Source: Prevotella sp.
Lineage (GTDB): Bacteria > Bacteroidota > Bacteroidia > Bacteroidales > Bacteroidaceae
Direction: 5' to 3'
DNA length: 56,522 nt
Assembly: GCA_017960525.1 (NCBI GenBank)
Contig: JAGCZA010000042.1
Location: 1-56,522, forward strand
The translations under genes and the position numbers were made by a program. Below are positions 11,680-14,021 of the stretch, piece after piece; positions within the stretch are counted from its first letter, which is position 1, and each line of letters begins with the position of its first letter. The notes under the pieces were generated by a model. That model saw only the letters and a list, made by a program, of their open reading frames with translations. It did no database searches and had not been told where the DNA came from.

Positions 11680-12873
11680 TTATTGAGGATCAAGAGCATC
11701 TAAGGACACCTGACGTGAAGTGAAGGTGCGCCCCAACACTTTGTTGAGCGCAATCTGGGCATCAGAAATGTCTATCATTCCATCATTGTTTAAGTCTGCC
11801 CCTTTTGAGGAGAAAGAATCGTTTGTTGCGCCAACAATATGGTTTACGATTGTCACCACATCGGCAATTGTTATCTGTTGATTGTTGTTTGCATCGCCCT
11901 TTTCTGTTTCATTAACAGTAATGGGTACGTACACTGGCGGCACACCTATACGTGTGCCTTCAGGCGTGACAAAGACCGCATTTGTAAACTTGATTGGGAA
12001 TGTTCCAGCATCTCTATATGGGGAAATATATAATTTTAAGTTAATGACAGCCCCATCATTATCCGATAGTTCGCCACCAGTTAAATCAAAAACAGAAAAG
12101 CAAATATTTCTATCAAAGTTTAGGTTTCCATCATGTGATAGGCTATGCTCATCATGGCGGTTATTTACCAAAGTTGGTTCTTCTAAAAGCCTAACGCCAA
12201 ATGGCAGGATTAAATTGAATTGATAGTTTGCTATCGTATTGACATTTTTCAACTTAATTTGCACCTCGATAACTTTTTCTGTATAAGATTCAATAGCATC
12301 CATATAAACGGCGTTTGAAAGTTGTGTTATATCAGTAGCATCTGTGACTTCAAAATCTTCGAAAATCTGGCCGTTTCTTTCATAATGAATGTTGTCATAG
12401 AATATGGAAAAAGATATCTCCTCGTAGCCATACATTCCAATCTTTGCTAGTATATTTTCACCAGTTTTTAAAACAGATTTAGGAATGGGAACAAGATCAG
12501 CCTCATGAGTGCGAACCTCACCAATATAGACCCCATTTATCCATATTTTTTGATACATAAAGTTTCCTTTATTATAATAATAGAACACATCATCCTTCAC
12601 TTCTGCCAGATTGAAACTAATTCTTTCACAAAGCCAAGATTCAGGAGTTACCTGTTCATATACCATATTAGCAGTTGTTGTCCATCCAGAATCATCATAA
12701 TCTACTTCATACCAGCTTTTTCCTTGAGCATCAGCATATGGCAAATCTTTTTCTCCATTCATCAGAACAAACTTGCTCCCACCTTCATAATTACATAATT
12801 CTGTTCTTGTCTGTCCCCATGCCACCATCGGCAATGCCAATGCCAGCATCATAAATAATCTTGCTTTTTTCAT
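11680..12873 (-). CDS. Secreted protein with beta-sandwich, cohesin-like and dockerin domains
   Basis: A 397-aa exported protein with a signal peptide (about 1-20, ending A-W-G-Q). Residues about 25-165 resemble a GH2-type jelly-roll (W-Y-E-V-D-Y-D-D-S-G-W; I-W-I-N-G-V-Y-I-G). Residues about 190-315 form a cohesin-like domain (Y-Q-F-N-L-I-L-P-F-G-V). Residues about 326-381 are a type I dockerin with two calcium loops, G-D-A-N-N-N-Q-Q-I-T and A-D-L-N-N-D-G-M-I-D. It is the first gene of the three-gene operon and lies behind an unusually long structured leader (12928-13217). Carrying both partner folds, it could self-assemble or bind other cohesin proteins; no enzyme motif is seen. Base composition is AT-richer than its neighbours, which may mean transfer. 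Confidence 0.75.
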   Translation of the reverse strand: MKKARLFMMLALALPMVAWGQTRTELCNYEGGSKFVLMNGEKDLPYADAQGKSWYEVDYDDSGWTTTANMVYEQVTPESWLCERISFNLAEVKDDVFYYYNKGNFMYQKIWINGVYIGEVRTHEADLVPIPKSVLKTGENILAKIGMYGYEEISFSIFYDNIHYERNGQIFEDFEVTDATDITQLSNAVYMDAIESYTEKVIEVQIKLKNVNTIANYQFNLILPFGVRLLEEPTLVNNRHDEHSLSHDGNLNFDRNICFSVFDLTGGELSDNDGAVINLKLYISPYRDAGTFPIKFTNAVFVTPEGTRIGVPPVYVPITVNETEKGDANNNQQITIADVVTIVNHIVGATNDSFSSKGADLNNDGMIDISDAQIALNKVLGRTFTSRQVSLDALDPQ

Positions 12874-12927
12874 AATCTTAGTGTTTTAAAAAGTTAATAA
12901 TAATACGTTAGTTCTTAAGCACAACGA

Positions 12928-13217
12928 GTGTGAGCCTTCTCGACATCCTTAGTCTGAAGGTCCTGGAATACCCGTATAAGTAAGAATGGAAATCGGCTCA
13001 CACCTGTAGGGATATATGGGAACTGGCTCCATAGCGGAGCGAGTGGTATATATGCTACTACAGGAGAAGCACCAATCAAACTTCTCACCCTTATACTTCG
13101 AATTTTCCAGGTTCTCAGACGGGTCAAAGCCTAATAGCTCTCCTCGATGTCGCCACTCCTTGCGGAATGACGGGGCAAAGATAAGCATTTTAGTTGAAAG
13201 ATGCAACATTGTGAGCC
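12928..13217 (-). ncRNA. Candidate structured RNA or long leader
   Basis: Four helices abut with no bases between them: 12928-12936 with 12995-13003 (9 bp), 13004-13009 with 13058-13063 (6 bp, with inner ATATAT and GCTCC/GGAGC stems), 13064-13069 with 13081-13086 (6 bp), and 13087-13090 with 13121-13124 (4 bp). A further GGCTCAC (13211-13217, minus strand) could pair with the 12995-13001 arm instead of 12930-12936, giving two mutually exclusive folds. A complete Bacteroidetes promoter lies just upstream on the minus strand, so the RNA would be about 300 nt, either separate or the 5' leader of the dockerin gene at 12873. No known RNA family was recognised. Confidence 0.5.
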
Positions 13218-13236
13218 GTTTTTTTCATTTTGGCGG

Positions 13237-13267
13237 CAAATATAGTGCAAAAAGACCTTTCCCGCAA
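13237..13267 (-). promoter_or_regulatory. Promoter of the structured RNA / dockerin operon
   Basis: On the minus strand TTG (13265-13267), 20 bases, TATATTTG (13237-13244). Both boxes and the spacing match the Bacteroidetes housekeeping consensus. Transcription would start near 13230 and reach the gene at 12873 after about 360 bases. Confidence 0.65.
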
Positions 13268-13398: not shown

Positions 13399-13448
13399 CA
13401 GAAAATTCCAAATAGAAATGGAAAGGGTAATAATAAACGTTATCGGTT

Positions 13449-14021
13449 ATGCTTGATGGCCAGAAGAAACAGGAACTGTTGAAACAGGAGGTGGAGCGGA
13501 TGATGGGGCGGCAGCTGAAGGAGGCCCGCGACTTCGAGGAGCTGAGCGAGCTGTTATCGTCGCATACACGCGAGCGGCTGTCGCCAACGACGCTGAAACG
13601 GCTGTGGGGCTATCTGCCCCATGAGGAGGTGCAGACGCGGCGGCATACGCTCGATGTGCTGGCACGGCTGACGGGTTTCCAGGACTATGAGGATTTCTGT
13701 GCACGGGCAGACGGATTGGACGAGGTGCAGAGCGGTATTCTCACTGAGTCGAGCATCACGACGGAGGGGATGAGGCGCGGCCAGCGGCTTGTCATCACCT
13801 GGCGGCCAGACCGCAGAATCGTGGTGAGGCACTTGGGGGACAGCCGTTTTGAAATTGTGGAGGCCGAGAACACAAAACTGTGTGTGGGCGACACGTTCCG
13901 CTGCCACCTGATGATTCAGCACGAGCCGCTCTATATGGATGATGTCGTGCATCTTGGACAACCTGCCATGACATACGTGGCAGGGCAGTGCGACGGCGTG
14001 TTTGTCACGGTATGTGATTAA
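13449..14021 (+). CDS. Conserved Bacteroidales protein with helical DNA-binding-like N-terminus
   Basis: A 190-aa cytoplasmic protein. The N-terminal half is helical and carries the recurrent segment L-S-P-T-T-L-K-R-L-W-G-Y, followed by T-L-D-V-L-A-R-L-T-G-F-Q-D-Y-E-D-F, a pattern common in Bacteroidales proteins of unknown role that looks like a helix-turn-helix scaffold. Residues about 105-190 form a beta-rich domain (G-Q-R-L-V-I-T-W-R-P-D-R-R). It converges on the Ser/Thr kinase gene with a 4-base overlap of stops. Similar proteins often sit near such kinases (recalled, not checked). It may be a regulator or phosphorylation partner; function is unknown. Confidence 0.75.
   Translation: MLDGQKKQELLKQEVERMMGRQLKEARDFEELSELLSSHTRERLSPTTLKRLWGYLPHEEVQTRRHTLDVLARLTGFQDYEDFCARADGLDEVQSGILTESSITTEGMRRGQRLVITWRPDRRIVVRHLGDSRFEIVEAENTKLCVGDTFRCHLMIQHEPLYMDDVVHLGQPAMTYVAGQCDGVFVTVCD

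Follow-up and report, generated by a model that had tools for sequence, protein, structure and literature searches.

In trp-type attenuators, strands pair in alternation and one register places a helix before a U-run, and the preQ1 and SAM-II elements are pseudoknotted riboswitches. Here we describe an RNA element that shares features with both, found in a 56,522-nucleotide (nt) stretch of Prevotella sp. DNA (GenBank assembly GCA_017960525.1, contig JAGCZA010000042.1, positions 1 to 56,522; hereafter the window). The element occupies ~250 nt between the divergent gene 13449-14021 (+) and the gene 11680-12873 (−). It is almost certainly a real structured RNA of the minus strand, and on balance we favour the reading that it forms the 5′ leader of the mRNA of the dockerin-domain gene that follows it, where it would act as a cis-acting attenuator with mutually exclusive strand pairings. 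Among described RNAs of these bacteria, the accessible text on FopS, a Bacteroides small RNA family, reports a single-stranded 5′ stretch followed by a terminator hairpin, nine intergenic members, four antisense members and one derived from a 3′ untranslated region (UTR), repression of a polysaccharide utilization locus in trans, and deposition in Rfam (PMC11697453). HMP2_4205 and HMP2_1065 are Bacteroidetes RNAs listed, in the part of that survey available to us, among candidates of 80-132 base pairs (bp) with predicted terminators (PMC8040213). Term look-ups of Bacteroidota names in the accessible text of three further surveys (PMC11109978, PMC8632094 and PMC2965389) found none.

The structure rests on comparison within the genus. 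Fifty-five distinct members were collected, and the 51 that were aligned underlie the covariation figures for the genus. Taken over the whole structure, pairing holds in 92.5% of 2816 cells and 35 of the 56 pairs have changed on both sides, amounting to strong covariation by paired substitution; the covariation score is 0.306, compared with 0.144 after shuffling and no more than 0.077 for slid versions. When column pairs were ranked by a corrected G statistic that makes no use of the structure, pairs of P3, P5, P4 and P6 (Table 1) filled the top seven places, and below these, non-helix pairs were mixed in. The letters around P4, some of them outside the helices, are invariant or almost so and look similar, by eye, in copies at the order and phylum levels. 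P7 and P8 were not seen by eye in compact relatives. In helix 1, which joins strands M and T, all nine positions are paired in 51 of 51 members. Five of these pairs are invariant and carry little information alone; a further pair is fully compensated, with changes on both sides, and another is U-G in 42 members, which places the RNA on the minus strand. Helix 1 crosses P3-P5, which would make a pseudoknot if both form.

Table 1. Coordinates of the leader RNA, its helices and strands, and associated features in the window
Feature	Position	Strand	Details
Leader RNA, window member	12920-13171	−	51-member alignment and covariation; 3′ limit is the alignment end
Promoter	13176-13216	−	block GCTCACAATG and -7 box TATCTTTG (13183-13176); TTG 20 nt upstream of the box
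P1, 5′ hairpin	13171-13165/13158-13152	−	6/7 pairs changed on both sides; 83.3% of cells paired
P2, outer pairing, poorly supported	13151-13147/12946-12942	−	85.4% of cells paired; 1/5 pairs changed on both sides
P3	13120-13115/12957-12952	−	5/6 pairs changed on both sides; top-ranked covarying column pair; supported in the wider family
P4, conserved core	13111-13105/12968-12962	−	CCUGGAA/UUCCAGG; 99.4% of cells paired; 4/7 pairs changed on both sides
P5	13095-13090/12980-12975	−	6/6 pairs changed on both sides
P6 (helix 2)	13063-13058/13009-13004	−	97.1% and 92.2% of cells paired; 5/6 changed on both sides
P7 and inner P8	13053-13048/13017-13012; 13039-13036/13030-13027	−	90.2% and 91.3% of cells paired
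Strand M	12981-13003	−	GUGUGAGCC and the linker after it; M:T and A:M tests on relatives
Strand T	12928-12951	−	GGCUCACAC (12936-12928) pairs with 13003-12995 (helix 1)
U-run position 3′ of T	12920-12927	−	weak in the window: UCGUUGUG
Helix 1	12928-12936/12995-13003		GTGTGAGCC/GGCTCACAC
Helix 2 (P6)	13004-13009/13058-13063		CTGTAG/CTACAG
Helix 3	13064-13069/13081-13086		GAGAAG/CTTCTC
Helix 4	13087-13090/13121-13124		ACCC/GGGT
Downstream gene	11680-12873	−	397 amino acids; N-terminal signal by inspection; translation
Dockerin_1 domain	residues 325-378 of the 11680-12873 product		Pfam PF00404, E 1.2e-5

An earlier, sequence-only reading had singled out this stretch for four complementary pairs that follow one another without gaps (helices 1 to 4). 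The abutment is exact in the sequence (9, 6, 6 and 4 bp), and 2000 dinucleotide shuffles of 12928-13267 never produced the chain, a result that is indicative only since the chain was defined after it had been sighted. Abutment of two helices of at least 6 bp is in itself no rarity: one or more such cases arose in 87 of 500 shuffles, and three, the number seen here, in 5 of 500. As elements of RNA structure, helices 1 and 2 were kept in the comparison, whereas helices 3 and 4 together barely exceeded shuffles (81.8% of cells paired versus 79.0%, and a covariation of 0.152 versus 0.120), and the main covarying helices P3, P4 and P5 were absent from the earlier list. Folding of the plus strand over 12928-13267 is modest (z -2.0) and that of the minus strand over 12900-13267 is better (z -3.5).

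The same reading had named an 86-codon reading frame at 12949-13209, and a small protein gene there would be an alternative to an RNA. This frame is uninterrupted in 26 of the 51 members, and 17 have some frame that stays open along the whole stretch. Among the nine members that share the window's gap pattern, synonymous changes reach 0.62 against 0.28 under a uniform model, a comparison in which the model ignores transition bias and the nine-member pairs are non-independent. Over all 51 members, there is no third-position excess (0.223/0.254/0.248), the segment length is not a multiple of three in 24, and base-paired covariation is found instead. A conserved frame with synonymous bias is thus largely absent from the full set, with the nine-member subset leaning the opposite way; the leader stretch is most likely not a protein gene, and we consider the 86-codon gene scarcely credible.

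The proposal that the RNA stands behind its own promoter was borne out by a promoter of the Bacteroidetes type on the minus strand. The TTTG of its -7 box is almost invariant in the alignment, the block GCTCACAATG is present in many members though not all, and a search for the pattern GCTCACAATG..TATCTTTG gave a single match in the window's own genome, at 13216-13176 (−). We take the RNA to start at 13171, going by the usual distance downstream of the -7 box. A third copy of GGCTCAC, suggested earlier as a competitor in an alternative fold, does exist on the minus strand (13217-13211), but it lies upstream of this presumed start and so belongs to the promoter, outside the RNA. The consensus for such promoters is TAnnTTTG in the accessible text of PMC9723704. 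Elsewhere, the block TAnnTTTGCAAAAAATACAGCTCACAATG..TATCTTTGC, which consists of two promoter-like boxes around GCTCACAATG, recurs whole or in part in L092, L093 and L090, there without the RNA and before genes named by inspection as nucleotidyltransferase-like, toxin-antitoxin-like pairs and ATPase-like; it is a repeated promoter module.

Strand competition was assessed on 99 non-redundant copies by computing duplexes of each strand with its own and with swapped partners. The strands Z, A, M, T and Q form a chain, in which adjacent strands match their own partner better than a swapped one, an advantage hardly seen between non-neighbours, and the pairings of adjacent strands compete for the same bases. 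M:T is the best-supported pair (73 of 99 copies), and in the window its duplex has -27.0 kcal/mol, with 4 of 57 swapped partners equally good. The earlier suggestion of two exclusive folds agrees in principle with these results, in that strand M, including 13003-12995, is contested by A on its upstream side and T on its downstream side, but not by the promoter-side GGCTCAC. Downstream of T, the 99 copies have a mean of 6.3 U per 10 nt, and at least six U in ten are present in 76% of copies compared with 11% of the background.

In the mechanism that we propose, the conserved rod P3-P4-P5 would carry two flanking strands (Z on the 5′ side, T on the 3′ side) and two loop strands (A on the 5′ side, M on the 3′ side). 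In the off register, A would pair with Z, and M with T directly before the U-run, giving a terminator-like arrangement knotted with the rod in which M:T would stop transcription. In the on register, pairing of A with M within the loop would keep M from T, and the freed T would pair with Q, a strand 5′ of the start codon, once Q has been transcribed. The choice of register would fall to a putative factor bound at the conserved core (AAUCUGGnnAAUU .. GGGnnUnCCAGAnCCU), where the segments linking P3, P4 and P5 keep their letters and offer it a natural site; this choice would set the expression of the next gene, often one for a surface or secreted protein. It is possible, though we rather doubt it, that the leader senses a small ligand; otherwise it would respond to a protein or another condition. 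Three observations count against this mechanism: the synonymous excess in the nine-member subset, the weak A:M pairing in the window copy, and the weak U-run there (UCGUUGUG). The latter two suggest that the window copy may use the registers differently or respond less. A fixed 5′ UTR domain that does not switch would also account for M:T being paired in 51 of 51 genus members and best supported among the 99 copies, as it would for the distance to the ATG (median 70 nt, quartiles 52 and 144); M:T would then be a pseudoknot that is always formed and either makes the message more stable or readies it for ribosome entry, which we regard as rather unlikely.

Two variants of the strands were seen. 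By inspection, in L104:2413-2514, a short form without most of the core, the first hairpin and the GAGGAGAGC motif run into a T-like strand GGCTCACAC, and a membrane-like gene comes next. A longer subtype in L187:1499-1678, L093:2024-2203 (minus) and L019 ends 3′ in a further T:Q-like pair, GAACTCCCACG .. CGAATTTGGGAG; this subtype also precedes a lipoprotein-like gene in the window's own genome.

The genes that follow the copies bear on whether the element acts in cis. Next genes were called with a simple open reading frame caller, and 96 of the 99 copies could be assessed: the next gene shares the strand of the copy in 91 and is opposite in five, and three were not assessable. In 59 of the 91, no more than 100 nt separate its start from the match end. 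Under a simple rule based on hydropathy and a lipobox, an N-terminal signal is present in 46 of the 91 first genes compared with 44 of the 167 remaining genes in these loci (Fisher p 1.3e-4), and 38 of the 91 appear cytosolic. All ten copies of the window's own genome precede proteins that by inspection start with a hydrophobic or signal-like segment: four leucine-rich repeat proteins of the BspA type, the dockerin-domain protein, a SHOCT-domain protein, two lipoproteins, a further secreted protein and a small membrane protein. In other genomes, the next genes include CD225 and SRA genes (Pfam hits) and, by inspection, SusC-like, sigma-factor-like, zinc-ribbon, TerB-like and XRE-like genes.

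The sequence-only reading had left open whether this was a riboswitch or attenuator or a free small RNA. The family U-run after T, the compact fold and the possible pseudoknot would suit a discrete small RNA that ends at T and the U-run and acts in trans, the next gene being expressed from its own promoter or by read-through. However, the fixed orientation and close spacing of the next gene favour an attenuator or riboswitch over such an RNA, and two copies stand within one leader, before a single gene, in L169, L184 and L095. We therefore judge a trans-acting small RNA unlikely, and action in cis, as a leader, quite likely.

Relatives were found well beyond the genus. Of 60 related genomes, 13 were hit in a DNA search, the window's own included; all belong to the same genus, and three were hit by short stretches only. 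When more of the genus was searched, 121 of 398 genomes gave a match, many through the promoter part alone. Searching named genomes for the pattern yielded 36 loci, many of them from ruminants; most lie in Prevotella or Prevotellaceae metagenome-assembled genomes, and a few are labelled Bacteroidales, Bacteroidaceae or just 'bacterium'. A Cecembia pattern locus was taken as a chance match. R1, a covariance model built on the core, found the element in 114 of 301 genomes sampled from the taxonomic family (19 of 30 genera) and in 25 of 247 from the order (21 of 174 genera). A second model, R2, was positive for 19 of 296 genomes sampled across the phylum (10 of 140 genera), including other families of the class and, tentatively, one genome outside it (E 1e-7). 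All three tallies count the window's own genome. In these wider sets, covariation of P3-P5 was strong, at 0.930 against 0.174 and 1.042 against 0.194, in alignments that were fitted to the P3-P5 structure; one of five measures, that of further pair types, did not exceed shuffles.

Copy number also brings a mobile or repetitive element into consideration, of the miniature inverted-repeat transposable element (MITE) or repetitive extragenic palindromic (REP) kind, that folds by happenstance. A deeper search of 20 chosen genomes (E up to 0.01) found 17 positive, with one to 16 copies each ahead of unrelated genes. Moreover, L047:2468-2777 and L049:5803-6112 seem similar upstream and in the first hairpin and differ in their RNA core variants and downstream genes, as if recombined within the leader. 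Such an element is nonetheless very improbable, given that most pairs have changed on both sides, that the orientation to the next gene is fixed, and that blastn of the window copy and of a Bacteroides-like copy (L138) gave no match on phages or plasmids. One viral contig has an exact pattern match near its end.

As for the surroundings of the window copy, the divergent gene has no Pfam match; by eye, members of its family also lie upstream of the RNA in L020, L022, L023, L036, L045, L047 and L049. A tRNA-Ser (GGA) gene is located at the window edge, 323-411 (−).

That the RNA had gone unrecognised is supported by Rfam 15, which has no match on the window element even at permissive settings; the sole weak hit, to a CRISPR (clustered regularly interspaced short palindromic repeats) repeat (E 0.53), falls outside it at 13401-13425. 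No Rfam family reached the gathering cut-off on the element in 50 relative loci. Permissive scans gave no match for L186 and five matches for L194, all far below the cut-off. Judged by sequence comparison, the element belongs to an RNA family of the Bacteroidota that is absent from Rfam 15. DUF805 RNA (RF03081), which by its Rfam type is cis-regulatory, as this element probably is, is a separate 68-position model without overlap with the element. A DUF805 RNA is found at L160:1683-1748, directly after a family member at 1501-1637, and recurs ~1 kb further on, at 2647-2715.

Bacteroidota are major bacteria of gut and rumen whose choice of surface proteins is understood only in part. If our reading is true, a multicopy leader RNA that Rfam lacks, that genera of several Bacteroidota families share and that is enriched before genes with N-terminal signals would add a new layer to this control. 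The covariance models built in this work yield a list of targets. Compared by description, FopS, a multicopy Bacteroides RNA with a terminator, resembles the element, whose own terminator is putative, but the two were not taken as identical: the fold found here differs from the single-stranded seed and terminator in the accessible account of FopS, and the element has no Rfam match. The human-microbiome candidates could overlap the leader family, as far as their available description allows a comparison. On the sequence evidence, the element appears to behave like an attenuator or an orphan riboswitch and belongs to no family tested. With preQ1 and SAM-II it shares a conserved core and, if helix 1 and P3-P5 both form, a pseudoknot beside an expression signal; unlike them it is longer, its genes point to no single metabolite, and it has no known ligand. 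With trp-type attenuators it shares adjacent strands that compete, a predicted helix before a U-run in one register and a same-strand gene downstream, whereas this leader has a conserved P3-P4-P5 core that the loop strands would knot around, a terminator-like loop of 30-60 nt, and a family spread over unrelated genes.
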